Assembly: GCA_023957755.1 (NCBI GenBank)
Contig: JAMLGT010000011.1
Coordinates: forward strand, 1-64,000
Length of the DNA: 64,000 nt
Reading direction: 5' to 3'
Source of the DNA: Chitinophagaceae bacterium
GTDB lineage: Bacteria > Bacteroidota > Bacteroidia > Chitinophagales > Chitinophagaceae
Part shown: positions 12,951 through 33,803 of the stretch, one piece after another
Position numbering within the stretch: position 1 is the first letter of the stretch
Layout of the letters: every line of letters starts with the position of its first letter
Notes under the pieces: generated by a model
The model's database searches: none
The model's input: the letters and a program-made list of their open reading frames with translations, nothing else
What the model was told of the DNA's origin: nothing
Position numbers and translations under genes: made by a program

Positions 12951-14075
12951 TTATTCTTTTTTGAAACGAGCTATCGCACTTCCGCTTTTGTTTACATACC
13001 TGACAAAATACATTCCGGCGGCAAGGGTAGCAATGTCTATTTCCTGGATAAGATTGGCAGAAACCTCTTTTTGGGTTATGATCCGCCCACCCAGGTCAAA
13101 GATTTGTAATTGAGATCTGGAATCAGGAACCCTGCCGAGGTGAAGACGTAGTTTATCTTTTGCGGGATTGTTTATGATATAGAAGTTTTTTTGTGAGATA
13201 TTTTCGATATTAACCACTATTGTAGGTGAGTATGAGAATTTGTTGTCAGAGTCCATTTGTTTAATACGGTAGAATACTTTTCCAGTGGCAGGATTCTTGT
13301 CGATGAATGTGTAAAGGGATCTTCCTATTGAGTTATGGCGAGGGCTCATGCTGCCTGCTTTCTTAAAAGAATGACCGTCGGTACTGCGCTCTATTTCAAA
13401 TAGTGCTACGTTTTTTTCCTCAGTAGTCTCCCATTTAAGTAATACACTATTATCCTTTTGTAATTGACCTGAGAAAGAAATCCATGTTAAGGGTAGGGTG
13501 CCCTCTAATGAAAATGTCCTTGCCAGAGTGAGCGAGGTGGGGTTGATAGTTCGGATATAAAGTGTATGCATAGTTCCTTTTGAAAGGCTGCTCACATCAA
13601 TTGACAGTGTATAGTTATTAAGTTCGGTGGTTGGGGAGATAAATTTAAGGGTGCCATTTCCCAACCCGGGGTCTTCATCAAAGAAATATTCGATTGCTTC
13701 AATGGGTGATTCTTGTTGGGATGACGGTATTTGAAAGTCCTGAGTTATTTTGTAGAGTTGAAAGTTGTTAGTCTGACTCCAGACGTTGTTTTTGTTTCTG
13801 GCCCTTACATATAAAGTATGCAGCCCGTTTGGAAGCGATGAAGCATCAATAGCTGTCGCGAGGTTGGCTACGACCGTGCATGGTGAAAAGTGCACAGTAA
13901 CTCCATTGCCAAATCCCGGGTCGTTATCGAATGTATATTCAATGGAAGTCACACCGAAGGGAATGGGATTGGGCGGTAATAAATAGTTATCCAGAGGTGT
14001 GGTCTGCGCCCCGGCAGAAAGCATGAGCAAGGGTACAGAGAGAAAGGCAATTACTGTTTTGAATGTACACTTCAT
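12951..14075 (-). CDS. T9SS-sorted surface protein with two internal repeats
   Basis: 374 residues from the ATG at 14075, which begins a good signal peptide (MKCTFKTVIAFLSVPLLMLSAGAQ). Two tandem domains of about 75 residues share IEYTFDNDPGFGNG and IEYFFDEDPGLGNG, each followed by a Ser/Leu-Gly-HTLYVR strand. Then comes a fibronectin-like strand region (LPLTWISFSGQLQKDNSVLLKWET) and a C-terminal type IX sorting domain (NFYIINNPAKDKLRLHL ... GMYFVRYVNKSG). It would be secreted and anchored at the cell surface. It sits 13 bases downstream of the beta-helix gene, so the two are one transcription unit. Confidence 0.8.
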   Translation of the reverse strand: MKCTFKTVIAFLSVPLLMLSAGAQTTPLDNYLLPPNPIPFGVTSIEYTFDNDPGFGNGVTVHFSPCTVVANLATAIDASSLPNGLHTLYVRARNKNNVWSQTNNFQLYKITQDFQIPSSQQESPIEAIEYFFDEDPGLGNGTLKFISPTTELNNYTLSIDVSSLSKGTMHTLYIRTINPTSLTLARTFSLEGTLPLTWISFSGQLQKDNSVLLKWETTEEKNVALFEIERSTDGHSFKKAGSMSPRHNSIGRSLYTFIDKNPATGKVFYRIKQMDSDNKFSYSPTIVVNIENISQKNFYIINNPAKDKLRLHLGRVPDSRSQLQIFDLGGRIITQKEVSANLIQEIDIATLAAGMYFVRYVNKSGSAIARFKKE

Positions 14076-14088
14076 GAGTTTACCGGCT

Positions 14089-15144
14089 TTAGTGAGAGGC
14101 AATACTTAGCGTGATATTCACAGTGGGCGTGCTTATGAGGTTGGGAATATCCGCAGAAAAAATACTGGGGATTGGTGGCATGCCGGATGGCACGTAAGGA
14201 GCGCTGCCTCCGAATGCACCGCAATCGATCATTATACTGTTTATACTGCCACCTTTCAACCCCGGCGAACCGGCTTTCAGTTTAAATCGGTTGTCCTTTG
14301 AAAATCCTTCTGAGGGGCTCTGGTCTCCATCATTCCAGTTAACAAACACTTGATCCATTTCGGTATTTTGAACGTTGTTACCTGCAGATGGAAATGCGGT
14401 ATTAGATATGATGTTGTTATAGTATTGATTGAGGGTCAGGTTGCTGGCTCCCATGCTGGGTGCCTGAATAATGTTGTTTTGAAAGAGAACATTTCTGCAA
14501 ATGAAGGATACAGAGCCTGTTTTAGTGTCAGGTAGAAAGGTGTTATTTATAGCGTAAATACTTGTGTTGTCAATATTTCCCGAAAAGTTAAAGCCTTTGC
14601 TGTAGAATATATTGTTATACACAAGGACATTATTTGCAGTTGAGGTTGATTCTCTGGAATTAATACCGTAGATAAAATTTTGCCGGATGGTATCATAGTC
14701 AGCTGTGGTATTAGGTTTGTCACCAAGGCGGAGCCAGCTTTCAATAAGGCATCTTTCAATAGTCAGGTGAGTGTCATTAAGATCGATTGTGCCGGTAATC
14801 TGGAGTCCGGAAACTTTGCTTCCTGAACTTCCCTGATCAAAACTGAGAGACTGGATTTTTGCGGGGTCTTTTAACCATTGGGTTTTTTCGTTTGCTATGT
14901 CTGTAAGGAAATAGCCTGTTCCAATTATTATTATCTTCTTATTTATAGTTGCGGAGTTATATGTAGTCTGAGAGCCTTCTAAGTAAATACTGTCGCCGGG
15001 GCTCACGAGTGGGGAGGTCACGGCCTCACTAAGTTGTTTAAAATCTGACTGGACTTCTGTATTGTTATTTACCCTCCAGATTTTAGCCTCGCTCAACAGA
15101 GATGTGAAGAGAGATAGTAAGAGTAGCAGTGTGTGTTTTTTCAT
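14089..15144 (-). CDS. Secreted right-handed parallel beta-helix protein
   Basis: 351 residues from the ATG at 15144, which starts a signal peptide (MKKHTLLLLLSLFTSLLSEA). The body is a run of short beta-strand coils with Asn ladders (GLQITGTIDLNDTHLTIERCLIES, NNVLVYNNIFYSKGFNF, SIYAINNTFL, ISRNVLFQNNIIQAP-like), as in pectate-lyase-fold proteins. No lyase catalytic Arg/Lys set could be assigned. There is no T9SS tail in this protein; the next gene of the unit carries one. Lies directly downstream of a LacI-type operator at 15234-15245. Confidence 0.7.
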   Translation of the reverse strand: MKKHTLLLLLSLFTSLLSEAKIWRVNNNTEVQSDFKQLSEAVTSPLVSPGDSIYLEGSQTTYNSATINKKIIIIGTGYFLTDIANEKTQWLKDPAKIQSLSFDQGSSGSKVSGLQITGTIDLNDTHLTIERCLIESWLRLGDKPNTTADYDTIRQNFIYGINSRESTSTANNVLVYNNIFYSKGFNFSGNIDNTSIYAINNTFLPDTKTGSVSFICRNVLFQNNIIQAPSMGASNLTLNQYYNNIISNTAFPSAGNNVQNTEMDQVFVNWNDGDQSPSEGFSKDNRFKLKAGSPGLKGGSINSIMIDCGAFGGSAPYVPSGMPPIPSIFSADIPNLISTPTVNITLSIASH

Positions 15145-15233
15145 CGCAATTTTAATTTTGAGAAGTAAGACTTCGCATGCTCTGGGCACATAAACTTACC
15201 TCAAAAAAGAGCGTTATATAAATGAAATAGAAC

Positions 15234-15245
15234 GCAAACGTTTGC
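15234..15245. promoter_or_regulatory. LacI-family operator, perfect 12-bp palindrome
   Basis: GCAAACGTTTGC is a perfect palindrome with the central CG typical of LacI/PurR-family sites; with its flanks it reads ACGCAAACGTTTGCAT, close to the PurR-type consensus. It lies about 90 bases upstream of the beta-helix gene start and 14 bases after the 3' end of the LacI-type gene. The same 12 bases occur at 16294-16305 on the other side of the regulator. Confidence 0.85.
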
Positions 15246-15258
15246 ATAATTTCCTTCT

Positions 15259-16278
15259 TCACTCCTTTTCAATGAGTTGTGTTTCTACATACACTTTAAA
15301 AAAAGCAGATGGTTCACTGGTAATTACATTCTTTTGCTGTATAAGGTCTAATAAAATTTCTGTTGATTTTTCGCCCTGTCGGTATGGAAACTGCTCTACA
15401 GAGGCGCTGGGACCATATTCCATAAATTTCAGGATAGGCATATTGGCATAGCTGACAAATTCGAGATCCTTCTTATACTTATTTGTCTTCCGTAAATGGT
15501 TGATTACATATATCGCTGTAAAATCATTAAACGTAATTATGGCAGTGGGGGGTTTCTTTTTCGCCAGGAGGGTTTCGATTGCATTTATCGTTCCCGCCTC
15601 GGATAAATCGCTCGAAACAATCAGCGATCGGTCGATCTTGAGCCTTTTCATCGTCAATGCTCTAAAGTAACCGTCCTCTCTTTCCATGCTGGCAAAAAGA
15701 GAGGGAGGGCCATTTATGAGGCCAATGGTTCTGTGTCCTTTCCTGAGGAGATAGTTCATGGCCTCGATAGTTCCGTTTCTAAGGTCACAGACTACATAGT
15801 GAATATTCTTCTGGTGGGGGATACAGTCAAAATATACTACAGGAAGGTGGTTTCTCTTTAGTGCATCCAGATGAGAATAGTTCATCGTCTTTTTGCTTAT
15901 TGAAATGAGTAATCCTTCTACCCGGTGGTGCAGCATACTTTCGACGAGTTCTTTTTCCTTTTCTTCAGTATCAAGTGATTGCCCGAAGAGTATTTTATAA
16001 TTTCTCTGCGTGGCAATGTTTTCTATGGCACTTAATGCTGTCGCGAAGAATGGTTCTGAAAGTTTGGGCACTATGACACCGATAGTTCCTGTTTTTCCAC
16101 GCTGAAATGAGATAGCGGGTGAACTGGGAATATACCCCAGTTGTTTAGCCATGCTACGTACTTTGTTTCTGGTTTTGAGTGAGATACTCGGATGGTTGTG
16201 CAGCGCTCTGGATACACTTGATACGGAGATACCTAATTTTTGGGCAATATCCTTTATGGTTACAAATTTTTCCTCCAT
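15259..16278 (-). CDS. LacI-family transcriptional regulator
   Basis: 339 residues. The N-terminal helix-turn-helix VTIKDIAQKLGISVSSVSRALHNHPSIS is unmistakable, followed by a hinge (PSSPAISFQRG, residues 51-61) and a periplasmic-binding-protein-like sugar-sensing domain (GTIGVIVPKLSEPFFATALSAIE). In the hinge, F58 replaces the usual minor-groove Leu and an Ile stands where Arg is common. The gene is flanked by two identical 12-bp operators, one only 16 bases before its own start, so it probably controls itself, the SusC/D unit and the leftward pair. Confidence 0.92.
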   Translation of the reverse strand: MEEKFVTIKDIAQKLGISVSSVSRALHNHPSISLKTRNKVRSMAKQLGYIPSSPAISFQRGKTGTIGVIVPKLSEPFFATALSAIENIATQRNYKILFGQSLDTEEKEKELVESMLHHRVEGLLISISKKTMNYSHLDALKRNHLPVVYFDCIPHQKNIHYVVCDLRNGTIEAMNYLLRKGHRTIGLINGPPSLFASMEREDGYFRALTMKRLKIDRSLIVSSDLSEAGTINAIETLLAKKKPPTAIITFNDFTAIYVINHLRKTNKYKKDLEFVSYANMPILKFMEYGPSASVEQFPYRQGEKSTEILLDLIQQKNVITSEPSAFFKVYVETQLIEKE

Positions 16279-16293
16279 TTTTTTCTAAATTAA

Positions 16294-16305
16294 GCAAACG
16301 TTTGC
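16294..16305. promoter_or_regulatory. LacI-family operator, perfect 12-bp palindrome
   Basis: A second copy of GCAAACGTTTGC, between the divergent LacI-type gene (start 16278) and SusC (start 16384). It is 16 bases upstream of the regulator's ATG and about 36 bases upstream of a -7 element for SusC (16341-16348), so it could serve autoregulation and control of the sulfatase locus. Confidence 0.85.
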
Positions 16306-16340
16306 GTTGGAAAGTAAAATAAATTGTTGAATTCAAAAAT

Positions 16341-16348
16341 TAAATTTG
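16341..16348 (+). promoter_or_regulatory. Probable -7 element (TAAATTTG) for the SusC/SusD unit
   Basis: TAAATTTG matches TAnnTTTG and lies 36 bases before the SusC start. No TTG element is found at 19-21 bases upstream; the operator palindrome sits just beyond that position. A missing -33 box with a regulator site upstream would fit a promoter that needs activation, but repression is equally possible. Confidence 0.4.
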
Positions 16349-16383
16349 AGTAGATATAGCATCATTTACCAAAGAATTAAGAC

Positions 16384-19300
16384 ATGCGTTTTTCAATGAC
16401 TAATAAAGCCAAAAAGCATAAAGACCTCAGATTGCGGTTTGTGATTACCGGCGCTTTCTTTCTGTTCCTGGGCTGTTTTTGGACAGGACACTCAGAGGCA
16501 CAGGTATCTACCCAGCAGGCTGGTCAAAAGACAGTGACTGGAAAAGGAACTGACATTACAGGCGTGCCGCTACCGGGCGTAAGTGTGAGAGTTAAGGGAG
16601 AATCTGCCGGGAGTGTCACCACTGGTGCCGGAGTATATTCTATTAAGGTGGGAGGCAGTGCCACCGTATTAGTTTATTCCCTTGTTGGATATATTACTCA
16701 GGAAAAGAAAGTAGGCGATAAAACCACATTGGATATCTCGCTTGCAGAAGAGGTGAAAACACTGGATGATGTAGTGATAATCGGGTATGGAGAGGTGCAG
16801 AGAAAAGACCTCACAGGATCGGTGACCAGTATCCAGTCAGATGAATTAATGAAAGGTAAACCACTATCGTTTCAGGAAGCCCTACAGGGGAAATTAGCCG
16901 GGGTACAGGTTTCGTCCTCTTCAGGAGAGCCGGGAGCTGCAGTGGCGATCTCGATAAGAGGAGCCAATACGATTTATGGCGGATCTTCACCTTTATATGT
17001 CATAGATGGGATTCCTTATGATCTTAACTCTAAAGAAGTAGCTGCTTCACAAATAGATGATGAATCCTATGGTATGTCTAATCCTCTTGCGACTCTGAAC
17101 CCACAAGATATTGAGTCGATAGACGTGCTGAAAGATGCCTCTGCAACTGCAATCTATGGCTCCAAAGGTGCAAATGGTGTAATCATTATTACTACTAAGG
17201 CAGGAAAGGCGGGGCAAATGAGAGTAGAGTATAATGGCGCTGTTACCTTATCTAATGCCATTAAAAAACTGAAAGTACTGGACGCCGCAGATTACATTGA
17301 GTTTAGAAGATTGGTATCTCCGAATTCTTCTCTGTTTTATTATGATAGTAACAAAGATGGACTGTATAATGAATTGGATGACCCCAAAGATCCTTACGCA
17401 TTGCCCTTTCATAACTGGCAAAATGAAATTCTTCGACAGGGGGTTTCTACCGACCAGAGTATTACCCTTTCGGGAGGGAGAGACGGTACCAGGTATAGTG
17501 GATCTGCAGGGTATGTGAATGAGAAAACAATTTTGATTGCCAATAATTTTGACAGATACAATTTCAGACTCAGAGTAGATCACTCTAAAAATAAATTTGA
17601 TATAGGGCTGGGAGCCGTAACCGGATATACGGAAACACAGGGCCCCAGCAACCTGGGGGTAATCCAAAGTCTTTCATTCGCACGACCAATAGAGTATTTT
17701 AATGAGACCGTTGACCTTGTCGACAGATATATATCTCCTATTGCAATGATCACTAAGTCTTATAGAAACAGAATATTGCTGAGGGCAAATATGACAGGAT
17801 ATATTGGTTATAAATTCAATAACAGCCTGTCATTTAGAAATACATTCGGAACCGTTTTGACCTCTTCCAAAGGAAAGGAGTTTTACAACAGTGAGACGGC
17901 CTGGGGAAGAGAGTATAAAGGGATTGGAATTCTCCAGGATATTAAATCTAACTCCATTCGCAACACCAGCCAGTTAAACTACACCAAGCGTGTCAAAAGA
18001 AATCACTTATTCAGAGGAATGGCAGGATTTGAAGTAAGCAGATATAATTATGAAAACTTCTCATTACAGAACTCTTACTTCTTAGATGAAAGTACCGGAG
18101 TGGACGATATAGGAAAAGGGTCTAAATTGAATAATCTGGGATCTTCAAGAGATATCAGCACACAGGTGTCGTACTTTGGAAGGTTCAACTATAGTTTCAG
18201 GAATTTACATCTTGTAACCGCGACATTCAGAGCAGATGGGTCTGACAAGTTCGGGCCGGAGAATCGCTTCGCTTATTTCCCTTCATTTGCTTATGCCTGG
18301 AATATTTCAAACGAGAAATTCCTAAAGGATTCCCGCAAAATCAGTGATTTGAAACTAAGGCTCACTTATGGTAAAACGGGGAACGACCGGATACCCTCTT
18401 TCAGATATCTGGCAGTTTTAGAAAATGCGTATTACAGTGGACAGTTGGGGTTGGCTCCTGCCTCTATGGCAAACCCAGATCTGAAGTGGGAGACCACTGA
18501 CCAATACAATGTGGGGTTGGATGTAGGACTTATGGACAACAGGGTATTAATTAATCTCGACTTGTACAATAAGCGTACAAGAGATATGCTGCTTCCTGCT
18601 TATGTCCCGACACGGACGGGCTATATTCAACAGTGGCAAAATCTTGGATTAATAACCAACAAAGGAATTGAGGTAGCAATTAATACCATCAACATCAGAA
18701 ATAAAGACTTCAGTTGGACGACAGGTTTTAATATAAGCTCTAACAGGAATATTGTAAATAATATTGGAAATGTGGGATTTATCAATGCAAGTATGCCCCA
18801 CACTATTAAAGATCAGGGACGTATAATGGTTGGTGGATCTATCGGAGATTTCTATGGATATGTGTTTGACGGAATTTATCAGATTGATGATTTTACCTGG
18901 CAGAATAACAGTGATCAGAGTATCCCGCATAAGGATAGGGTATATGTACTTAAGGATGGTATTGTCAGCCAGACAGGGATTAATGCTGCTCCCGGATTTT
19001 TTAAGTATAAGGATTTGAACGGTGATGGGTTTATAGACCTTGACAATGATAGGAAGATAATCGGCAGAAGTTTCCCTAAACATTTTGGTGGAATAACCAA
19101 TACGATTACCTATAAAAACTTCGATTTGAATATCTTTCTTGACTGGTCTTATGGCAATCAATTATTTAATCTCTATCGTTTCCAGTTTGAAGGTGGGCTT
19201 TATGGTTCCTGGCAAAACTTGTTGCAGGACTTCTGGGATAACCGATGGACACCTGAAAATCCTACCAACAAATACGGAGATATAGCAACCTATAACCTGG

Positions 19301-19581
19301 CATCGCAATATTCATCTACCTATTATATCGAAGATGCATCGTGGTTGCGTCTGAAGGATGTAACAATCGGCTATCAGTTTTCAGGGGAGAAGATTAAGAA
19401 ATTAGGGTTAGGTATCAGTAGTGTGAGGGCATTTTTTTCGGGTACGTACCTGGTTACCTGGACAAAATACTCGGGCTTTTATCCTGAGGTGAGTAGTAAT
19501 AATCCCCTGCTGCCGGGAGTTGACAGGGTTTCCTTTCCGCGAAGTCGCAATTTTTCCTTCGGTTTAAATGTGAAATTTTAA
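16384..19581 (+). CDS. SusC/RagA-type TonB-dependent outer-membrane transporter
   Basis: 1065 residues, a typical SusC size. After the signal region (ends around HSEAQ, residue 39) comes the CarboxypepD_reg-like domain (TVTGKGTDITGVPLPGVSVRVKG), then a plug domain with DVVIIGYGEVQRKDLTGSV, LQGKLAGVQV and IRGANTIYGGSSPLYVIDGIP, and the 22-strand barrel ending FPRSRNFSFGLNVKF. It would import glycan oligomers with energy from TonB. First gene of the rightward locus, ten bases before SusD. The ATG at 16384 is used; an ATG four codons on (MTNKAKK) is an alternative. Confidence 0.95.
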   Translation: MRFSMTNKAKKHKDLRLRFVITGAFFLFLGCFWTGHSEAQVSTQQAGQKTVTGKGTDITGVPLPGVSVRVKGESAGSVTTGAGVYSIKVGGSATVLVYSLVGYITQEKKVGDKTTLDISLAEEVKTLDDVVIIGYGEVQRKDLTGSVTSIQSDELMKGKPLSFQEALQGKLAGVQVSSSSGEPGAAVAISIRGANTIYGGSSPLYVIDGIPYDLNSKEVAASQIDDESYGMSNPLATLNPQDIESIDVLKDASATAIYGSKGANGVIIITTKAGKAGQMRVEYNGAVTLSNAIKKLKVLDAADYIEFRRLVSPNSSLFYYDSNKDGLYNELDDPKDPYALPFHNWQNEILRQGVSTDQSITLSGGRDGTRYSGSAGYVNEKTILIANNFDRYNFRLRVDHSKNKFDIGLGAVTGYTETQGPSNLGVIQSLSFARPIEYFNETVDLVDRYISPIAMITKSYRNRILLRANMTGYIGYKFNNSLSFRNTFGTVLTSSKGKEFYNSETAWGREYKGIGILQDIKSNSIRNTSQLNYTKRVKRNHLFRGMAGFEVSRYNYENFSLQNSYFLDESTGVDDIGKGSKLNNLGSSRDISTQVSYFGRFNYSFRNLHLVTATFRADGSDKFGPENRFAYFPSFAYAWNISNEKFLKDSRKISDLKLRLTYGKTGNDRIPSFRYLAVLENAYYSGQLGLAPASMANPDLKWETTDQYNVGLDVGLMDNRVLINLDLYNKRTRDMLLPAYVPTRTGYIQQWQNLGLITNKGIEVAINTINIRNKDFSWTTGFNISSNRNIVNNIGNVGFINASMPHTIKDQGRIMVGGSIGDFYGYVFDGIYQIDDFTWQNNSDQSIPHKDRVYVLKDGIVSQTGINAAPGFFKYKDLNGDGFIDLDNDRKIIGRSFPKHFGGITNTITYKNFDLNIFLDWSYGNQLFNLYRFQFEGGLYGSWQNLLQDFWDNRWTPENPTNKYGDIATYNLASQYSSTYYIEDASWLRLKDVTIGYQFSGEKIKKLGLGISSVRAFFSGTYLVTWTKYSGFYPEVSSNNPLLPGVDRVSFPRSRNFSFGLNVKF

Positions 19582-19590
19582 AAATCAGAA

Positions 19591-21222
19591 ATGATGAGAA
19601 AGTTATTTGTTTTAAGTTTTGTATTCATTTTAGCATCATGTACCAAGATGCTGGAGACCGCTCCCTATTCATTTGGAACCGTAGAGAATTTATACAAGAG
19701 TGCTCAGGATGCGGAGCTGGGTTTGACGGGATGCTACAACATTCTCAATACGGAGCAGGTGCAGTCAGTATCCGGTCAGCAGGCGGGAGCTACATTTAAT
19801 AAGTATATGCACGTAATGATGGATATGGGATTCGACGAGTTAATTCCAAATCCGGCTAATGGACTGAGGGTTGATTATGGGCCATTTGCCCTGCATACGG
19901 TTACTCAGCAACATGAAGTAATCAGAAACAACTTTTTCCTCTGGTTTGCAGGAGTAAATCGTACAAATTACTTGTTGGATGGTGTGGGCAACATCGATAT
20001 GAACGAGGCTCGCAAAAAGGAGATTCTTGGAGAAGGGCATTTCCTCAGAGGGGTTTTCTACACCTATTTGGCAATGTTGTATGGTGGTGTACCGGTATAT
20101 GATGTTCCTAACCATGACCCCAATGCTCCACGCCAGTCATTGCAGGAAGTGTATGACCTGGTTATTAGTGATTTCAAATATGCATACGAAAATCTGCCCG
20201 ACAGAGCCGGTATTTTGGGGAGAGCCAATAAGTGGTCTGCCGCATCTTACCTTGCCAAAGTATATACTTATCTGGCAAGTTGTAAGCAAAATTCAGTAGG
20301 TGCCGGGCTGAACTTCCCATTGAACTCTTTTGACTGGGTAAATGCGCAGGATATGTATGCACAGGCACTTCAGGTGACTCAGGATATAATTAGCCACAGC
20401 GGATACAAACTGTTGGATAATTACAATTACCTTTTCTATGAATCAACTGATGCATACAGGGATCAGGAATGTCCTTTTGTGGTGATGTCAAGTAGTAGTC
20501 CCACAAACGGTAATCATACATATTGGGGAGAGTTTCTTGTGCCGGCAGGAAACAGGAATACTAATGGAGGTGGAAGGGCCATCTTCAGGCCTGTTGCAGA
20601 AATGCTTTCATTATATAGTAATTCAGATTTCCGTAAAGGATGGAATCTGGTGTATCAGTTAAGAGATATTGACCCTACGGAAGTGATTGATGGAGTCACC
20701 TATAAGGTGCCCCGACTGGCAGTTACTCCCAATTCTGGATTAGTATGTAGTGGCAAGTTCAGATACATGATACCAAGCGAGAAGATGATCGATAACACCA
20801 GGTCGATTGGTTCCACACCGATAATTCGTTTTGCGGATATATTGTTGCTCAATGCTGAGGCTTTATATTATACCGGCAACGAGCCTGAAGCAAGAAATGT
20901 ACTTTATAAGATAAGAAAGAGGGCAGCTCAGAATGATGATGCGGTGGCTACTGCGTTGACCAATGCATACCATCGCGACGATTTTCTAAAAGAACTTCTG
21001 GAAGAAAGGAGTCGCGAACTTTGTTTTGAGGCCTGGAGAAGGATTGACCTGATTAGATTCGGCAAGGTGGAGGAAGCACTTAATGCCATTAATCCTAATG
21101 TGGGCGCATATAATAAAATGATAACTGAGATACGAACCAACTGGAGTCAGTACAGGATATGGTTCCCTATTCCTCAGTCAGAAATTGATTTAAGCAAGAT
21201 TGAACAAAACCCCGGTTATTAA
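19591..21222 (+). CDS. SusD/RagB-type glycan-binding lipoprotein
   Basis: 543 residues with a lipoprotein signal (FVFILASC, lipidated Cys about residue 17). SusD-fold TPR helices and the conserved C-terminal part are present (RFADILLLNAEALYYTGN, LEERSRELCFEAWRRIDLIRFGK, WFPIPQSEIDLSKIEQNPGY). It would sit on the outer leaflet as the lid of the SusC channel and bind substrate. The substrate is best inferred from the sulfatases downstream. Its stop is one base before the ATG of the first sulfatase. Confidence 0.95.
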   Translation: MMRKLFVLSFVFILASCTKMLETAPYSFGTVENLYKSAQDAELGLTGCYNILNTEQVQSVSGQQAGATFNKYMHVMMDMGFDELIPNPANGLRVDYGPFALHTVTQQHEVIRNNFFLWFAGVNRTNYLLDGVGNIDMNEARKKEILGEGHFLRGVFYTYLAMLYGGVPVYDVPNHDPNAPRQSLQEVYDLVISDFKYAYENLPDRAGILGRANKWSAASYLAKVYTYLASCKQNSVGAGLNFPLNSFDWVNAQDMYAQALQVTQDIISHSGYKLLDNYNYLFYESTDAYRDQECPFVVMSSSSPTNGNHTYWGEFLVPAGNRNTNGGGRAIFRPVAEMLSLYSNSDFRKGWNLVYQLRDIDPTEVIDGVTYKVPRLAVTPNSGLVCSGKFRYMIPSEKMIDNTRSIGSTPIIRFADILLLNAEALYYTGNEPEARNVLYKIRKRAAQNDDAVATALTNAYHRDDFLKELLEERSRELCFEAWRRIDLIRFGKVEEALNAINPNVGAYNKMITEIRTNWSQYRIWFPIPQSEIDLSKIEQNPGY

Positions 21223-21223
21223 T

Positions 21224-22702
21224 ATGGTTAGGAAGACCATATCAATATGGCTTGTTTTCATGGTGGGCGTTGCGTATTGTAATGCACAGGTGAAGGAGAG
21301 TACCCTGCCCAATATTGTATTTATTTATGCCGATGATTTGGGTTATGCTGAGGTGGGAAGTTATGGTCAGCAAAAGATCAGGACTCCCAATATTGATAAA
21401 CTCGCTGAAGACGGCATTCGCTTCACACAACAATATTCCAGTTCGCCTGTATGTGCACCTTCACGATGTATGATGCTTACGGGTAAGCATGCCGGACATG
21501 CTTACGTGAGGAGCAATTACGGAAAGGGGGGCTTTACGGATGATTCCGAACTGGGGCAGTTTCCTCTTCCGGAGAATGCGTTTACTATAGGACATCTGTT
21601 TCAGAATGCGGGATATGTGACTGGAGCTATTGGGAAATGGGGACTGGGAATGGCCAATAATTCCGGTAGCCCGCTCAAGCAGGGCTTTGATTATTTTTAT
21701 GGATATCTCGACCAAAAGCAGGCGCACAATTATTATCCGACTCATTTGTGGGAAAATGATAAGTGGGATACACTCCCGAATGTGTTTTTTGATGTGCATG
21801 AGAAGTTAGACCCTTCTAAGGCTACTGATAAAGATTTTGAACGATTTTTTGGGAAAGAGTATTCTGTTACCAAGATGGCTGAGAAAGCTGTGAGTTTTAT
21901 TGAAAGAAATAAAGACAATAAATTTTTCCTGTATATCCCCTTTACAATTCCTCATGTAGCACTACAGGCTCCGCAGGAGTTCATCGATCAATATGTGGGA
22001 GAGTTTAAAGAGAAGCCTTATTATGGGCAAAATAACTATGCACCGAGCAAGTATCCTTTATCGACCTATGCCGCTATGATTACCTATATGGATTATCAGG
22101 TAGGCGTGTTGATGGAGGAGCTTAAGAGACTGGGGTTAGAAGAAAACACCCTTGTTATTTTCTCAAGTGACAACGGTACTACATTTAACGGTGGGGTAAA
22201 TGCGGCATTTTTTAATAGTACAGGAGGGCTCAGAGGATTGAAGGCTGATGTTTTTGAAGGGGGGATCAGGGTGCCATTTATTGCGAAGTGGCCCGGGCGA
22301 ATTAAGGAAGGTACAGTGTCCGACTTGCCCATAGTACAATATGACCTGATGGCCACTTTTGCAGAGCTGACCAGGCAAAAAGTAAAAAATACAGATGGGG
22401 TATCTTTTCTGCCTGAGTTATTAGGTAATCATAGTGCCCAGAAAGGTCGCAAATTTATCTACTTTGAATTTCCAGCAAAGGGTGGTCAGGTAGCCGTACG
22501 GATGGGCGACTGGAAAGCCGTAAGGATAGGGGTGAAAAACACTTTTGAAACTCCGTGGATGCTTTTTAATCTGGCAGTGGATCGGGAAGAAAAGCAAGAT
22601 GTATCTGCTTTACATCCAGACCTTATTAAAAAAGCAGAAAAGATTTTTCGGTCGCAGCATGAGTCCCCGCAATTAAAAGAGTGGGAGATGGTTATGCCAT
22701 GA
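21224..22702 (+). CDS. Secreted sulfatase (formylglycine type)
   Basis: 492 residues from the ATG at 21224, directly after SusD; an ATG eight codons upstream overlaps SusD and is less likely. Signal peptide to about residue 21. Family S1 motifs: metal-binding IYADDLGYAEVGSYG (D37, D38), the modification site C77-A-P-S-R-C-M-M-L-T-G, TGAIGKWGLG and FSSDNGTTF. C77 must be converted to formylglycine by a maturation enzyme that is not in this window. It would remove sulfate esters from the glycan; position on the sugar is unknown. Confidence 0.92.
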   Translation: MVRKTISIWLVFMVGVAYCNAQVKESTLPNIVFIYADDLGYAEVGSYGQQKIRTPNIDKLAEDGIRFTQQYSSSPVCAPSRCMMLTGKHAGHAYVRSNYGKGGFTDDSELGQFPLPENAFTIGHLFQNAGYVTGAIGKWGLGMANNSGSPLKQGFDYFYGYLDQKQAHNYYPTHLWENDKWDTLPNVFFDVHEKLDPSKATDKDFERFFGKEYSVTKMAEKAVSFIERNKDNKFFLYIPFTIPHVALQAPQEFIDQYVGEFKEKPYYGQNNYAPSKYPLSTYAAMITYMDYQVGVLMEELKRLGLEENTLVIFSSDNGTTFNGGVNAAFFNSTGGLRGLKADVFEGGIRVPFIAKWPGRIKEGTVSDLPIVQYDLMATFAELTRQKVKNTDGVSFLPELLGNHSAQKGRKFIYFEFPAKGGQVAVRMGDWKAVRIGVKNTFETPWMLFNLAVDREEKQDVSALHPDLIKKAEKIFRSQHESPQLKEWEMVMP

Positions 22703-22727
22703 GGTAACTCACTAATAAAGTAATTAA

Positions 22728-24431
22728 ATGAAACAAATTCTTTTTTCGTTGTTCTTAATTGCAACTACAGCCCATGCGCAACAACATGGCAGTAGCTTGT
22801 CTCCTTTCAATCCGGGTATCACTCCGTACATTAACTCCATTTCGGCATATAACAGAGATAAGAATACTGTACTGAGTTCTCCCTACGTGAAGAATTTGAT
22901 GATAATGTTCAGATGGAGTGACCTGGAGCCTGCTCCGGGTGATTTTAAGTTTGATGAAACGATTGGAAGAATATTGAGAGATACTAAGGGGGTCGGGAAA
23001 GGATTTTCTTTTATGATATGGGTCGGGCCTAATTCCCCCGAATGGATTTATGATAATGGAGTGCCTCTGGTGACGGTGACGGGAGGGAATGAAAGTTTGA
23101 AGTATCCCTATTATTTTTCACCTAAATACAGAGAGTTCTTTTTCCGGTTAGTTACCGAACTGGGGAATTATATCAAAAGCCTGCCTCAGGATGAGGTAGA
23201 TAACATACTGTATTTTCAGGTATCAGAGGGAACCACAGGAGATACTTCGCCCTACCAGGGAGCCAGCGTTCCGGTTGATCCGCAGTATAAGATATTACCT
23301 GCTGACTGGATGGACTTTCGGATGGAGGTTTGGGATAAGTATAAAGAAGCATTGTGGAGAGATGGCCAGACGGTAATTCCATTTCTTTTTACTGACGATG
23401 CCAATACAGACAGGGAGCGTAACTGGCAATTGCAGAATCTCAATAGGTTTGGAGCCAAGAAAGGCCAGTTTGGCCACGGGTATAACAATAATAATATTTT
23501 TCGTCTGATTGCCCCATGGCTCAATCTGCAGAAAGATGCGAGAGATAATGACATCCTCATTTTTGCCAGAGGCGAGTGGGATAATATCTTATTGGCGCAG
23601 GGCTGGGTGCAGAAGAACCCTCCGCTGGCGTTTTATTGGTCTGCTATCTCCGCTTTATTTTTTGATATCAATTACTGGAATCCGTTGGTAGAAATCATTG
23701 GCAATGGTGAGTTATACGCTGAGGGTCTTTCGTTTTATAACTCTCACGTGGGATCTCTTGGCAACCCTTCTAAGGCTACCTATGCTTTTTGTGCAATGCA
23801 CAGGATGCTGGAAGTGCTGGATGTAAATGAATTTCCCGAAGCTACCTATGGTCAGGCCGTGAGAACGAATATTCAGAGATATAGAAACATTATTGCAGAT
23901 TTTGCAGCAAGGGGAGCTAAAATAGGTGATGAATCCACACTTCCTGCCAACAGCATTGCCAGCAGAACACGTAAGGACTATAACGATATTGGATGGAGTA
24001 TTTATGAAGGTAACTTCTATAAGTATCTGGAGCAGATAGATCCGGAAACTACCAGTGATGCATATTGGAATTTGGATCAGACCATATATGGAAGATTTGC
24101 GAGAGGGTTCAGGCAGGGAGCAAATAATAAAATGTATTTTAAGCTTGACCCTGGATTCTTCAATAGTGCCGACCCACAGAAGGTGAGCATCACTATTACG
24201 AGCAAGGATACCGGTGCCGGAAGTTGGGAGTTGCTTTACTTCGATGGGGCAGAGATGGTGAGCGCAGGTACTGTTACTAATTCAGGAACAGACAAATGGG
24301 TGAAGAATGTATTCGCGATCAGCTGTGCCGTATTCACCGGGAGTCTTGAGAGAGGGGCTGATCTGATTATCCGTCAGGTAGGATCGGAAAATACATTTTT
24401 CCATTTAGTTGATTTGAAAAGAGAAGAATGA
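22728..24431 (+). CDS. Secreted glycoside-hydrolase-like protein, family not assigned
   Basis: 567 residues with a signal peptide (MKQILFSLFLIATTAHAQ). The N-terminal two-thirds looks like a (beta/alpha)8 barrel of the clan GH-A kind: MIMFRWSDLEPAPGDFKFDE is a typical early-barrel segment. E167 in YFQVSEGTTGD and E283 in IFARGEWD lie about 115 residues apart after hydrophobic strands and are the best acid/base and nucleophile candidates. Residues about 445-567 look like a beta-sandwich. I do not recognise the family. It lies between two sulfatase genes in the SusC/D unit, so it probably acts on a sulfated or desulfated glycan. A decayed copy of its 3' end follows at 24493-24534. Confidence 0.65.
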   Translation: MKQILFSLFLIATTAHAQQHGSSLSPFNPGITPYINSISAYNRDKNTVLSSPYVKNLMIMFRWSDLEPAPGDFKFDETIGRILRDTKGVGKGFSFMIWVGPNSPEWIYDNGVPLVTVTGGNESLKYPYYFSPKYREFFFRLVTELGNYIKSLPQDEVDNILYFQVSEGTTGDTSPYQGASVPVDPQYKILPADWMDFRMEVWDKYKEALWRDGQTVIPFLFTDDANTDRERNWQLQNLNRFGAKKGQFGHGYNNNNIFRLIAPWLNLQKDARDNDILIFARGEWDNILLAQGWVQKNPPLAFYWSAISALFFDINYWNPLVEIIGNGELYAEGLSFYNSHVGSLGNPSKATYAFCAMHRMLEVLDVNEFPEATYGQAVRTNIQRYRNIIADFAARGAKIGDESTLPANSIASRTRKDYNDIGWSIYEGNFYKYLEQIDPETTSDAYWNLDQTIYGRFARGFRQGANNKMYFKLDPGFFNSADPQKVSITITSKDTGAGSWELLYFDGAEMVSAGTVTNSGTDKWVKNVFAISCAVFTGSLERGADLIIRQVGSENTFFHLVDLKREE

Positions 24432-24492
24432 TGGAGAGTGGAATATTGGGCTTAAAAAGTGAGGTTTGATATTAAAGTAAAGCGGAAGAGAT

Positions 24493-24534
24493 AATACATT
24501 TTTTCATTTGATTGAATTGAAAAGAATATCGTGA
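24493..24534 (+). pseudogene. Remnant duplicate of the 3' end of the preceding gene
   Basis: 33 of 42 bases match the last 42 bases of the gene ending at 24431, including the stop codon. In the same frame the remnant encodes NTFFHLIELKRIS-stop against NTFFHLVDLKREE-stop in the intact gene. Similarity fades upstream where the frame meets a stop at 24478. This is best read as what is left of a tandem paralogue deleted from the locus. The TGA at 24532 precedes the ATG of the second sulfatase by eight bases. Confidence 0.6.
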
Positions 24535-24542
24535 AAAGTATC

Positions 24543-26144
24543 ATGAAAGGTAGATTTACAATTTTAGTATCCGTTATAATTTGTAGCGGACTTATCTTGA
24601 ACAGCTGTAGGACTGGACATGCACAGATGCCCAATATTGTAGTCATTTGTGTGGATGACCTTGGCTATGGCGATTTATCGTGCTATGGAGATGCCGACGT
24701 GCCCACGCCTAATGTGGATAAGCTGGCAAACGAAGGCCTGCTTTTTACCGATGCGTATGCCACTGCATCAATTTGCACCCCTTCACGATATTCTTTGCTG
24801 ACAGGCAGATACCATTGGAGAAGCACAACCAGCTGGAGTGTGGGGAAAATAAAAGACGTGAGTATTGCTCCCGGGGATGCAGGCCTGATCATAGATACAA
24901 GTATGATTACTGTCCCCAAGGTGTTGAAAAAGAAAGGATATGTGTCAGGAGTTGTGGGTAAGTGGCATTTGGGCTTAGGGCCTGCAGGAGGACCTGACTG
25001 GAATGGAGAAGTGGATCTGAGTCCACTGGATATCGGATTCGACTATTCATTTATTATGCCGGCGACAGCAGACAGAGTGCCTTGTGTATTTGTAGAAAAC
25101 AGGCATGTAGTAGGACTAAACCCGGCAGATCCGATAAGAGTTAGCTACGAAAAACCTATTGGCGATACTTCACAGATTTATAATCCGGATGTGACTCCTG
25201 ATGTGATTGTTACCTATACGCCCGAGAATGAACGCAGGAAAGGAGAAGTGTTAATGCAGCCCAGTTTTGGTCATGATCAGACGATAATTAATGGAATCCC
25301 GAGAATTGGGTATATGACGGGTGGACAAAGTGCGCTCTGGAAAGATGATGAGGTGGCCAGTACATTCGCCGGCAAAGCAATTGACTTCATTGACAAAAAC
25401 AGTAAGAAGCCGTTTTTCTTATATTTTGCTACGCACGATCTGCACGTGCCGCGTGTGCCGAACAAAGCGTTTGCGGGGAAGAGTAAGATCGGAATTTATG
25501 GGGATGTCATAATGCAGATGGACTGGACTGTAGGACAAATTTTGAAAAGGTTGGATGAACTAAAACTTACAGAAAATACAATAGTGATTCTGACGAGTGA
25601 CAATGGGCCGGTAATTGATGATGGGTATAATGATGGAGCTTATGAAGGAATTAAAGCGCATAGGCCTTCGGGCAAATATAGAGAAGGGAAATACAGTGCT
25701 TATGAAGGTGGTACCAGAATTCCTTTTATAATCAGATGGCCGAAGGAGATTAAGCATGGAAAGTCTGGAGCGATGTTCAGTCAGGTGGATCTGTTAGCGA
25801 CTCTGTCAGATATAGTAGGAAATAGGAATACTGATAATTATGGAATTGACAGCAGAGCATTTAAGGAGGTACTCACAGGTAAAAAAGATAGGGGTAGGGA
25901 TTATGTGGTTATTCAGAATATGAATAAAACTCTGTCAGTAATAAAAGGTGGGTGGAAATATATTGAACCTTCTGATAAGCCAAGACTTAACCAATATACC
26001 AGACCGGTTACAGATCTTGGGAATATGGAGACTCCACAGTTATTCAATCTGTCAAACGATCCGGACGAGGAGCACAATGTCGCCAGGGAATATCCTGATA
26101 AATTGAAAGAGATGGAGCTGATTCTGGCAGATGAAAAAAAGTAA
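24543..26144 (+). CDS. Secreted sulfatase (formylglycine type), probable lipoprotein
   Basis: 533 residues from the ATG at 24543; a GTG at 24531 overlaps the upstream remnant's stop and is less likely. The N-terminus ends SGLILNSC, a plausible lipobox with lipidated C22. S1 sulfatase motifs: VICVDDLGYGDLSCYGD, modification site C78-T-P-S-R-Y-S-L-L-T-G, VVGKWHLG, ILTSDNGPV. It differs strongly from the first sulfatase and so likely removes sulfate from another position or sugar. Needs the same maturation enzyme, absent here. Confidence 0.92.
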   Translation: MKGRFTILVSVIICSGLILNSCRTGHAQMPNIVVICVDDLGYGDLSCYGDADVPTPNVDKLANEGLLFTDAYATASICTPSRYSLLTGRYHWRSTTSWSVGKIKDVSIAPGDAGLIIDTSMITVPKVLKKKGYVSGVVGKWHLGLGPAGGPDWNGEVDLSPLDIGFDYSFIMPATADRVPCVFVENRHVVGLNPADPIRVSYEKPIGDTSQIYNPDVTPDVIVTYTPENERRKGEVLMQPSFGHDQTIINGIPRIGYMTGGQSALWKDDEVASTFAGKAIDFIDKNSKKPFFLYFATHDLHVPRVPNKAFAGKSKIGIYGDVIMQMDWTVGQILKRLDELKLTENTIVILTSDNGPVIDDGYNDGAYEGIKAHRPSGKYREGKYSAYEGGTRIPFIIRWPKEIKHGKSGAMFSQVDLLATLSDIVGNRNTDNYGIDSRAFKEVLTGKKDRGRDYVVIQNMNKTLSVIKGGWKYIEPSDKPRLNQYTRPVTDLGNMETPQLFNLSNDPDEEHNVAREYPDKLKEMELILADEKK

Positions 26145-26177
26145 TAAACATAGAAACTAAATCAAAAAATAAAAATC

Positions 26178-26501
26178 ATGAAAAAACTATTGTTAGTACT
26201 TGCAATGACCTTTATGACAGGCTTTGTATTTGCTCAGAAATCACCCGCCAAACTTACCCCAATGTCGGGTATTACACTTACAAAAGATCAGCGGGCAAAA
26301 ATTAATGAGGTTAATAAGAATGTGGTTAAACAGATCGAAACCATCAAGGCAGATTCAAACTTGAGTAAGAGGGAAAAGTTTGAGAAGACCAGGGAGGCAA
26401 GAGAAGGTCAGGAGGAGTCAATCAAGAAATTGCTTACACCTGAACAGTATGCAAAGAGGCAGGAAAACATTGAGAAGATTAAGGCACAGAAAGAAAATTA
26501 G
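26178..26501 (+). CDS. Small periplasmic helical protein, Spy/LTxxQ-like
   Basis: 107 residues: signal peptide (MKKLLLVLAMTFMTGFVFAQ) and a highly charged helical body with LTKDQRAKINEVN near the start and LLTPEQYAKRQENIEKIK near the end, the twin LTxxQ-like motifs of Spy/CpxP-type periplasmic proteins. A chaperone or stress role is known for the family in general; here it is inference. It lies 33 bases after the second sulfatase, inside the glycan-use series. Confidence 0.65.
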   Translation: MKKLLLVLAMTFMTGFVFAQKSPAKLTPMSGITLTKDQRAKINEVNKNVVKQIETIKADSNLSKREKFEKTREAREGQEESIKKLLTPEQYAKRQENIEKIKAQKEN

Positions 26502-26624
26502 TGCTTTCCTGATATCAAAACATCAGGTATTAACCTGGCATTAATTTGAGATGTTCGGTGGCTGCTTTTTTTTGCCTGTGTAGTATTTGAAGCAGGTACT
26601 ATTATAATATTAAATCAAAACAAG

Positions 26625-28082
26625 ATGAAAAATAAAAGAAGAGACTTTTTGCGACTGAGCGGATTAATCGGGCTCAGTACGCTGTTAAAGCCAATAGAAG
26701 GCCTGTCAAAAGACTCAGAAATCAGGGATATGAGCTTTATGAGCTCAGGTACTGCCGGATTTAACATGTGTGGCTATAGTGCCCCTAAGATTGATAACGT
26801 GAGGGTGGGGGTTATAGGTGTAGGAAATAGAGGCCAGGCAGCAGTTTACAGGTTGAGCCAGATAGAGAATGTCACCATAAAAGTGTTGTGTGATGTACAG
26901 AGGGATAAGATAGACTTTGCATTGAAGCGTATTAAGAATTCGGGGCAGAAGCCAAAGATCCTTACAGGAAGCGAAGACTGGAAGCGCGTTTGTGAGATGA
27001 ATGACATCGACCTGATTTATATAGTTACACATTGGGCACTACACACACCTGTAGCAGAGTATGCTATGAAGAATGGTAAACATGTATGCGTGGAGGTTCC
27101 GGCTGCTACCACGGTAGATGAGGCGTGGCGATTAGTGGAAGCCTCAGAAGCTAATAAGCGTCATTGTATGATGCTTGAAAATTGTTGCTATGATTTTTTC
27201 GAGCTACTGACTTTAAACATGGCAAGACAGGGTTTCTTTGGTGAAATCTTCCATTGCGAAGGAGCATATATTCATGATTTGAAGGAAAATATTACCCGTA
27301 AGAATTTTAAGTGGCACATGTGGCGGCTCAAAGAGAATTATGAACGAAAGGGAAACCTGTATCCCACGCATGGGCTTGGGCCTGTATGTCAGGTAATGAA
27401 TATCAACAGAGGAGATAAATTTGATTATCTGGTGTCCATGTCCTCCGCCGACTTTATGCTGGGACAGTACGTGGAAGACCTTGCTAAAAAAGACGATTTT
27501 TATCAGCCTTACGTAGGAAAAGACTATAGGGGTAACATGAATACCTCAATAATTAAGACACAAAAGAAGAAAACTATCATGTTGCAACATGATGTGACTT
27601 CTTCCAGGCCCTATTCGCGCATTCATTTAATCAGCGGAACCAAGGGCACTGCGCAAAAATATCCTTTGCCTGATGGAAAAGAATCGGGCCGTATTGCCAT
27701 CGATCACACAGGATGGCTTCCTAAAGAGGAGGTTGAAAAGTTAAGAGAAAAATATAACCCGGCTATAATAAAAAGAATCGGAGAACTGGCTCGAAAGGTA
27801 GGAGGGCACGGAGGAATGGACTTTCTAATGGATTGGCGCACCATTGACTGTCTGAGGAATGGGCTGCCGCTTGATCAGGATGTGTATGATGCGGCGCTTT
27901 GGAGTTGTATCTTCCCTTTGAGTGAAGAATCAATTAAGAATCGTTCAAAGTCAATGGACATTCCGGACTTTACCAGAGGCAACTGGAAAACAAATACCCC
28001 TGTGGATGTGACACTCAGCAAAGGCGGAAATACGGGAATAAAGGACATTTCGAAGCCTCAAAAGGAAGATTTTGTTTTATAG
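26625..28082 (+). CDS. GH109-like Gfo/Idh/MocA family protein
   Basis: 485 residues. N-terminal Tat-type signal RRDFLRLSGLIGLSTL, then a Rossmann domain VRVGVIGVGNRGQAAVYRL and the segment THWALHTPVAEYAMKNGKHVCVEVPAATTVDEAW. The C-terminal signature GGHGGMDFLMDWRTIDCLRNGLPLDQDVYDAALWSC and PDFTRGNWK is that of GH109, the NAD-dependent alpha-N-acetylgalactosaminidase family. Within the locus it suggests that the glycan contains N-acetylgalactosamine, but related proteins act on other sugars. 123 bases separate it from the small helical protein. Confidence 0.85.
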   Translation: MKNKRRDFLRLSGLIGLSTLLKPIEGLSKDSEIRDMSFMSSGTAGFNMCGYSAPKIDNVRVGVIGVGNRGQAAVYRLSQIENVTIKVLCDVQRDKIDFALKRIKNSGQKPKILTGSEDWKRVCEMNDIDLIYIVTHWALHTPVAEYAMKNGKHVCVEVPAATTVDEAWRLVEASEANKRHCMMLENCCYDFFELLTLNMARQGFFGEIFHCEGAYIHDLKENITRKNFKWHMWRLKENYERKGNLYPTHGLGPVCQVMNINRGDKFDYLVSMSSADFMLGQYVEDLAKKDDFYQPYVGKDYRGNMNTSIIKTQKKKTIMLQHDVTSSRPYSRIHLISGTKGTAQKYPLPDGKESGRIAIDHTGWLPKEEVEKLREKYNPAIIKRIGELARKVGGHGGMDFLMDWRTIDCLRNGLPLDQDVYDAALWSCIFPLSEESIKNRSKSMDIPDFTRGNWKTNTPVDVTLSKGGNTGIKDISKPQKEDFVL

Positions 28083-28180: not shown

Positions 28181-28264
28181 GGCGGATGTATAATTATGAA
28201 ATCATTTTTAGATATTTTAAATCGTTACCCTAAATCATATTTTTTAATCTTAAAATGGCGTATT

Positions 28265-32408: not shown

Positions 32409-33803
32409 TTATCCGTGAAAAATAATATTCCAGATAAATTTTATAAACAGGTACGTCAATACGATAGAGGTTATGTTCAAAAATAAACCTGCTCTGACCA
32501 TGTCACCTATTCGTACTTTTCCTGAACTAAAGACGATAGCGTTCGGGGGAGTGGCCACAGGTAGCATAAATGCGCAGGAACTGGATATTGCTGCACCTGC
32601 AAGCAGCGGTAGTACATCCAGATGAAGAGACGCACTCAGCGTGATCAACAAGGGTAGTATCAGGCTTGCGGTAGCCGTGTTTGAAGTGATTTCTGTCAGG
32701 AAGTTGATAGCTGCCAGAATCAGTAGTACAATAAGTGCTGTAGGCATAAAGCCTAATAAGCTGAATTGTGCGCCAAGCCATACTGTAAGATCCGTATTGG
32801 CAAATCCTTTTGCAATTGCGAGTCCTGCCCCGAATAGCACGAGTACGTCCCAGGGTAGTTTTTTGGCTTCTTTCCAGTTGATCAGATTTTCATTTTTTTC
32901 GCCTGCAGGAATAATGAACATCAGTAGTGCTCCTCCGATTGCTATTACAGTATCGTCCAGTCCGGGAATATACTTGTTCCATATAAATGATCTTGTGATC
33001 CAGAAGAATGCAGTTAGGGTAAACACAAGTGCAACTCTTTTTTCAGCCGGAGTCATTTTCCCAAGTGAAGACAACTCCAGAGCAGGAGAATGATCTGTTT
33101 TTTCTACACGGTAGCGTGTCAACCAAAGCCAGGTTAAAAATAAAAGGATTGCACTAAAGGGAAGGCCGAAGAGTAGCCAGTCCAGAAATGATATTTCGTA
33201 TCCCATAGATTCCCTGACGATGCCGGCGAGAATGATATTGGGAGGAGTGCCAATAAGCGTAGCGATACCACCAATGGAAGCGGCATACGCAATTCCAAGC
33301 ATCAGGTTCTTTGAGAACGGCTGACTGTTACCGAAGTGGTGCATTACTGAAACGCCAATGGGGAGCATCATAATAGCAGTAGCAGTATTGGATATCCACA
33401 TTGAAAGGAAAGCGGTAGCAACCATCATTCCCAAAAGCACTCTTTTCTCGCCGGTGCCTGCAACTCTGATGATGTTGTAAGCAATTCGCTTATGCAGGTT
33501 CCTGTTTTCAATAGCCAGCCCTATAATAAATCCACCGAGGAAAAGATAGATGAATGGATTGCCGTAAGCGCTCGTGGTTTGCTCGATTGTGAGCGCTCCT
33601 GAAAGTGGAAAAATCAAAATAGGGAGAATGGAAGTAACGGGTAATTCCACCGCTTCGGTGATCCACCATAATGCTACCCATGCCGTACAAGCCAGAACCG
33701 CCTTTCCTTCAGGAGAGAGCCCTTCAATGGGTATAAGCCTGATGATAATAAATAAAGCGGGGCCCGTAATTAATGCCACCCTGCGTGTTAGTTTCTGAAC
33801 CAT
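32409..33803 (-). CDS. SLC13 (DASS) family anion permease
   Basis: 464 residues with about eleven membrane helices. Family features: the paired SNT-type motifs MWISNTATAIMMLPIGVSVMH and FLTEITSNTATASLILPLLI, plus the helical hairpin regions around GGIATLIGTPPNIILAG and MLPVATPPNAIVFSSG. Members use a Na+ gradient to take up dicarboxylates, or sulfate in some branches. With sulfatases nearby sulfate handling is tempting, but sequence alone does not support that. Confidence 0.88.
   Translation of the reverse strand: MVQKLTRRVALITGPALFIIIRLIPIEGLSPEGKAVLACTAWVALWWITEAVELPVTSILPILIFPLSGALTIEQTTSAYGNPFIYLFLGGFIIGLAIENRNLHKRIAYNIIRVAGTGEKRVLLGMMVATAFLSMWISNTATAIMMLPIGVSVMHHFGNSQPFSKNLMLGIAYAASIGGIATLIGTPPNIILAGIVRESMGYEISFLDWLLFGLPFSAILLFLTWLWLTRYRVEKTDHSPALELSSLGKMTPAEKRVALVFTLTAFFWITRSFIWNKYIPGLDDTVIAIGGALLMFIIPAGEKNENLINWKEAKKLPWDVLVLFGAGLAIAKGFANTDLTVWLGAQFSLLGFMPTALIVLLILAAINFLTEITSNTATASLILPLLITLSASLHLDVLPLLAGAAISSSCAFMLPVATPPNAIVFSSGKVRIGDMVRAGLFLNITSIVLTYLFIKFIWNIIFHG

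Follow-up and report, generated by a model that had tools for sequence, protein, structure and literature searches.

In this Chitinophagaceae genome, a LacI-type protein encoded at 15259-16278 would control two neighboring gene units from the only two full-consensus copies of its operator, each of which lies 35 nt upstream of the predicted -7 box of one unit. One unit is a pair of genes for a beta-helix-like protein and a T9SS-tailed protein, the other runs from susC to a GH109-like gene. The best explanation of the data, to which we assign a probability of roughly 0.55, is that a local, sugar-responsive regulator binds both sites, contacts RNA polymerase, most likely from one face of the DNA, and thereby activates both units, activation being the most probable outcome of the contact. 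The window, that is, the whole 64-kb stretch of DNA that was analyzed, is part of contig C3 in an assembly of 3,665,499 bases and 35 contigs.

Two operators at a single lacI gene

Operator A (GCAAACGTTTGC, 15234-15245, no strand assigned) is found just past the stop codon of lacI, on the upstream side of the beta-helix/T9SS pair, and operator B (the same 12-mer, 16294-16305, likewise without strand) lies in the divergent lacI/susC intergenic region. They are 1,060 bp apart and flank lacI. Between operator B and the start codon of lacI there are 15 nt, and the site would therefore probably also repress lacI. The sequence search found both perfect 12-mers exactly where an initial annotation, made from the DNA letters, had placed them. 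That annotation had spoken of a divergent layout, which is correct for the site at 16294, between lacI and susC, but not for the site at 15234, which has the lacI stop codon on one side and the beta-helix gene on the other, with both genes on the same strand.

These two perfect matches, both at one lacI gene, are the only ones in the whole assembly, and a reversed control pattern gave no match in the same search. The initial annotation had named frequent occurrence elsewhere in the genome as the observation that would count against it, and the 3.67 Mb hold two copies only. One-mismatch versions occur at three further places, two of them within open frames (1,848 and 1,251 nt, in the 3-kb stretches examined), and all three lack a -7 box (at most one mismatch) at 25, 26, 35 or 36 nt. 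The whole-assembly and one-mismatch searches rule out that the 12-mer is a chance or common genomic word.

The regulator (339 aa, minus strand) has an N-terminal LacI helix-turn-helix (PF00356, 51.6 bits against a cut-off of 27) and a C-terminal periplasmic-binding-protein-like sugar domain (PF00532 and PF13407, both above cut-off). With a palindromic operator of the central-CG type adjoining its own gene, it is a member of the LacI family, and the description of the sites as LacI-type palindromes beside a true LacI-family gene was right. No equivalog cut-off was reached in a comparison with NCBIfam. The one other LacI-domain gene in the assembly codes for a protein about 25% identical to the locus regulator.

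Gene content of the two units

The minus-strand unit consists of a gene for a secreted beta-helix-like protein (14089-15144; likely ATG at 15144, with the open frame running to 15189) and a gene for a secreted protein with a T9SS C-terminal sorting domain (12951-14102, PF18962). The beta-helix fold class is the putative assignment of the initial annotation; the protein matches nothing in Pfam at 0.001 or in NCBIfam at 0.01.

The plus-strand unit contains, in this order, genes for a SusC-like TonB-dependent transporter (16384-19581, PF07715 and PF13715), a SusD-like binding protein (19591-21222, PF07980 and PF14322), a sulfatase (21200-22702, PF00884; closest solved chain 7ana, 430.7 bits), a secreted protein of 567 aa without a named family (22728-24431), a second sulfatase (24531-26144, PF00884; closest solved chain 6s20, 579.9 bits) and a GH109-like NAD-dependent glycosidase (26625-28082, PF21252 and PF01408). 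A SusC/SusD pair together with glycan-active enzymes makes this a polysaccharide utilization locus (PUL).

Conservation in near relatives

The locus is present in two near relatives, the congener G004 and G006, in which it is split over two contigs; a search with the LacI protein gave three loci on these two metagenome-assembled genomes. G006 is too close to add much to the conservation argument. In G004, a 13-bp island at operator A (ACGCAAACGTTTG) is kept at 13 of 13 positions, while the lacI/beta-helix intergenic DNA as a whole has 60 of 110 aligned bases identical and four-fold-site identity has fallen to 26% (beta-helix gene), 30% (MBL), 32% (RodA) and 53% (T9SS gene). This makes selection on operator A very probable, although not all of its neighbors are saturated, as lacI, which flanks it, keeps 61% of its four-fold sites. 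The -7 box TAAGTTTA is also kept in G004 within the diverged intergenic DNA. Conservation of operator B weighs less, because its whole surroundings are conserved too.

On a larger scale, the segment that runs from lacI through the GH109 gene (15259-28082) has 61-89% four-fold-site identity to its G004 counterpart (L052, L197), with just 43% for the first sulfatase gene. Values of 26-35% were obtained for PBP2, RodA, MBL, the beta-helix gene, DsbA and the gene at 32409, and 53% for the T9SS gene. The regulator and the PUL have probably been exchanged between species as one block, and the beta-helix gene has not.

Predicted promoters and the 35-nt spacing

The predicted -7 box of the beta-helix gene (TAAGTTTA, 15191-15198, minus strand) lies 35 nt downstream of operator A and 46 nt before the ATG at 15144, and deviates from the consensus TAnnTTTG by one mismatch. 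The predicted -7 box of susC (TAAATTTG, 16341-16348, plus strand) lies 35 nt downstream of operator B. According to a passage in PMC9723704, the Bacteroidota -7 box TAnnTTTG spans -12 to -5 in Flavobacterium. On this numbering, the center of the site is near -53.5 at a spacing of 35 nt and near -43.5 at a spacing of 25 nt, which is one helical turn closer and on the same DNA face. Operator, 35 nt and TAA(A/G)TTT, a composite pattern devised after both sites had been seen, has two matches in the window and none in 100 shuffles.

As the site has equal promoter geometry at both units, the best reading is that they form one local regulon. To this extent, and with regard to the LacI palindromes, the interpretation in the initial annotation stands; it missed the 35-nt spacing, the helical phase in the family and the mechanistic consequence.

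A spacing rule across the family

A scan of 294 genomes of the family for sites with a -7 box speaks for a preferred distance between the two. Among the 150 matches listed, 34, from 18 genera, have a spacing of 25 nt, 17 have the next commonest spacing of 18 nt, eight have 26 nt and seven have 35 nt, and, with 25 and 35 set aside, the other 29 spacings have a mean of 3.8. For these matches, the 25-nt peak has a binomial p of about 3e-19 under a uniform expectation and with near-copies included, and the 35-nt peak alone, with seven among the 150, is not significant in the family scan (p = 0.21). A control palindrome with a GC center (CAAAGCTTTG) has 86 matches in the same 294 genomes, of which four are at 25 nt and one at 35 nt, with a maximum of seven per spacing, which rules out base composition as the origin of the 25-nt peak. 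In other families of the phylum, 68 matches gave no peak like that at 25 nt, with the exception of family f23, whose ten matches fall at 25 nt (three), 35 nt (three), 23 nt (three) and 20 nt (one).

A separate group of matches, in genomes of family f1, has spacings of 18-20 nt (17, 11 and 14 among the 150 listed), some of them with a recurring longer sequence. In this group, the TTTG of the site itself could be the -33 element, which suggests other regulators with CAAACGTTTG-like sites that overlap the -33 region.

Sites next to lacI homologues can be taken without regard to the box. Among 116 oriented lacI-linked flanks (near-duplicates removed, sites not selected by -7 box), a box with at most one mismatch is found at 25 nt in 19, at 35 nt in six and at 36 nt in five, with a mean of 1.6 boxes per spacing over 10-69. 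The GC-center control has no box at 25 and 35 nt and one at 36 nt at lacI loci, in 16 flanks only. When exact boxes up to 120 nt from intergenic sites (at most one mismatch) were counted in the window and in 80 stretches fetched as LacI relatives, ten were at 25 nt, four at 35 nt and nine at eight other spacings; three of the four at 35 nt are the study locus in the window, G004 and G006. Beside lacI homologues, then, the site keeps one helical phase relative to the core promoter downstream of it, with peaks at 25 and 35/36 nt. Two SusC genes, at a spacing of 33 nt (L154, L173), are exceptions.

The spacers share little sequence, with at most 0.46 bits per spacer column in 32 non-redundant sites. 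Mere common descent of one promoter is ruled out as the reason why the spacing is kept, as the spacers are unlike and the targets differ. An activated promoter would be expected to lack a -33 element, but the comparison, with few promoters, did not reveal such a lack: a TTG at 18-23 nt occurs in 7 of the 31 promoters with an operator and in 17 of the 116 without. There is a slight A/T excess upstream of the site.

LacI homologues and their target genes

The locus LacI protein was matched in 95 of the 196 genomes searched (our genome included, at most ten matches per genome scored). A SusC gene lies less than 5 kb from lacI in 23 of 79 lacI loci, which include the window and of which several stretches end before 5 kb, and it is divergently adjacent in 11 of the 79. 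Within this family there is nothing unusual about a LacI gene beside such a locus, contrary to the rarity that the initial annotation had claimed. The site (at most one mismatch) is found within 400 nt of lacI for 26 of the 53 homologues that are at least 43% identical, and three control palindromes near the same 53 are found 0, 0 and 4 times. For the less similar homologues the site is present in 5 of 25, and the controls in 0, 1 and 2 of 25.

The two spacings have different clients: the 25-nt sites mostly precede enzyme genes, the 35/36-nt sites often susC. Beside lacI homologues, the first gene at 25/26 nt in 23 cases is 14 times a kinase, twice a GH109 gene, three times lacI and four times another gene or none; the kinase was called N-acetylhexosamine-1-kinase-like, and the GH109 genes were named, from sequence reading alone. 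The three cases with lacI itself (L059, L088, L108) do not fit plain autorepression there. The 16 cases at 35/36 nt include seven SusC genes, three beta-helix genes and one sulfatase-like gene, with three of the seven SusC genes and all three beta-helix genes coming from the study locus in the window, G004 and G006. The family scan adds SusC genes at 35 nt in L148 and L166, and four loci (L058, L060, L062, L063) combine a kinase gene at 25 nt with a SusC gene at 35 or 36 nt. In 19 of 81 lacI loci, the kinase gene lies downstream of lacI and in the same orientation, no more than 800 nt away.

Near matches of the family scan, tblastn detected further GH109 and kinase genes, and other neighbors read, from their N-terminal sequence, as glucosamine-6-phosphate deaminase, GH27, GH35, sialidase and MFS transporter. 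Thirty stretches were fetched around the 34 matches at 25 nt, the other four being lacI-linked loci already in the set; eight of the 30 contain a homologue of the locus LacI and one a more distant LacI. Where all 25-nt sites are assigned to this regulator, we infer the connection, as many of them are tied to it by the site sequence only.

A quick tree places the locus LacI and its G004 ortholog on a long branch, without firm placement with the kinase-linked group. The pair is on the side of 20 other sequences, none of them kinase-linked, with support 88, and by path it is nearest to L056 and three kinase-linked sequences. Tentatively, and with odds somewhat short of even, the data may point to a LacI clade in Chitinophagaceae and their kin that consists of polymerase-contacting activators of genes for N-acetylhexosamine and sulfated-glycan use, acting from 25 or 35/36 nt and with lacI under a like site.

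Activation or repression

The spacing is exact to the base pair, the spacers change and the steps are helical turns, which suggests that the bound protein must face the polymerase in a set orientation. Activators need such an orientation and simple blockers do not. The geometry thus points to activation or contact repression rather than simple blocking. Most LacI proteins repress, and it is possible, although on balance doubtful, that this one is an ordinary repressor, which would sit upstream of both core promoters until a sugar releases it, with the spacing being the best position for blocking. The 25-nt spacing, which places the site beside the -33 region, would suit such a protein, but the 35-nt spacing puts the end of the site near -48, at a good distance from a -33 element, and exact spacing with little sequence conservation exceeds what steric blocking needs. 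Passages in the literature report that local LacI regulators commonly autoregulate (PMC4052901), and that repression by CcpA, a LacI/GalR protein, is also stronger at helical-turn steps (PMC3463425). The same source has CcpA activating from sites upstream of the promoter in a helix-face-dependent manner. This precedent and the fixed helical phase are why we give activation better odds than repression, if not high ones.

Two other arrangements would use the operators differently. That operators A and B, identical and on either side of lacI, are bridged over 1,060 bp by one assembly that silences the lacI region and both units is very improbable: the 339-aa protein ends near the end of the sugar-binding domain, with no added tail, and the loop would be long for the LacI family. 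It is a little less improbable, but still unlikely, that only one unit is regulated, with operator B serving lacI and susC and operator A being a relic or having another role. Operator A survives in G004 amid diverged surroundings and has the same spacing as operator B, and several relatives likewise have a -7 box 25 nt from a site that separates lacI from the gene after it.

Substrate and likely signal

We take the closest solved relatives of the two sulfatases, 7ana and 6s20, to belong to the sulfatase subfamilies S1_20 and S1_15, respectively; 6s20 is named N-acetylgalactosamine-6-O-sulfatase. In the relevant passage of PMC10154612, S1_20 enzymes act on 3-sulfated and S1_15 enzymes on 6-sulfated Gal/GalNAc. 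In one relative (L155), a LacI homologue and a kinase lie together with proteins related to the two sulfatases (47% and 42%). Sulfatase kinship, the presence of a GH109 gene and the link to a kinase among the relatives make an N-acetylhexosamine-containing sulfated glycan the likely substrate. The signal would then probably be GalNAc, GlcNAc or a phosphorylated form of such an N-acetylhexosamine, freed from that glycan.

One finding complicates this picture. Our genome has its own run of such genes on another contig (C32:150410-158438, L196), with GH109-like and kinase genes followed by genes that read as GH35, GH27, alpha-fucosidase and sialidase. No site with at most one mismatch is found within the 15 kb fetched there, whereas some relatives have it at genes of this kind. 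In its own genome, the sulfatase locus and the beta-helix pair seem to be all that the regulator has kept.

Comparison with known systems

The core of the locus palindrome is nearly identical to that of PurR and CytR of Enterobacteria, going by the PurR consensus. These proteins have the same domain order as the locus LacI but different target genes, and the locus protein stays below both equivalog cut-offs (PurR, NF007979, 146.7 against 501 bits; CytR, NF008269, 183 against 436 bits). CcpA of Firmicutes is the closest solved relative by sequence (1rzr), and shares the LacI fold, the central-CG palindrome and, as predictions for the locus LacI, activation from upstream of the promoter and dependence on the helix face. 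The locus LacI scores far below the CcpA equivalog cut-off (TIGR01481, 143.1 against 442.35 bits). CcpA is a global regulator that binds in a complex with HPr-Ser-P, whereas the locus LacI looks local and sugar-driven and lies at -7-type promoters of Bacteroidota.

Within the phylum, the Bacteroides hexuronate regulators KdgR, UxaR, UxmR and UxuR are also LacI-family proteins of sugar catabolism (PMC3878776, in part). The workflow described there associates polysaccharide loci with HTCS and SusR-like regulators, whereas here a LacI gene lies at a SusC/D-sulfatase locus. A lacI gene also lies inside the xylan PUL of Gramella flava, a Bacteroidota SusC/D locus, for a different sugar and, in the passage at hand, without mention of an operator or spacing (PMC5306329).

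None of the titles and abstracts listed in a literature search, with subscription journals largely outside its reach, deals with the spacing rule or the regulon in Chitinophagaceae, and both, as outlined here, appear to be new. The literature that we examined says little on LacI control of SusC/D loci in Bacteroidota. If our model is correct, it would add a further form of direct, sugar-sensing positive control of these loci to hybrid two-component and ECF/anti-sigma systems, and it would tie the sulfatase and GH109 genes of several genomes to one predicted N-acetylhexosamine signal. The spacing rule allows activation and repression to be told apart precisely and cheaply, and members of the regulon should be found more specifically by a site with its -7 box at 25 or 35/36 nt than by the palindrome alone.

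Further proteins of the locus

The 567-aa protein of the plus-strand unit is possibly a barrel-type glycosidase of the beta-galactosidase kind, judging by a predicted structure with a mean pLDDT of 74.8 whose best fold matches are weak (TM-scores of about 0.32-0.37). Its relatives occur in 13 of the 244 family genomes searched (our genome included), in several copies in some, and often sit within open frames of at least 1,000 aa. G004 has a second copy beside the first, 56% identical (L197, C28:170476-172191). The open frame after the GH109 gene (28196-30544) codes for a protein of 782 aa with five DUF285-matching stretches and a T9SS tail, which is strongly divergent between species (67% at the amino acid level).
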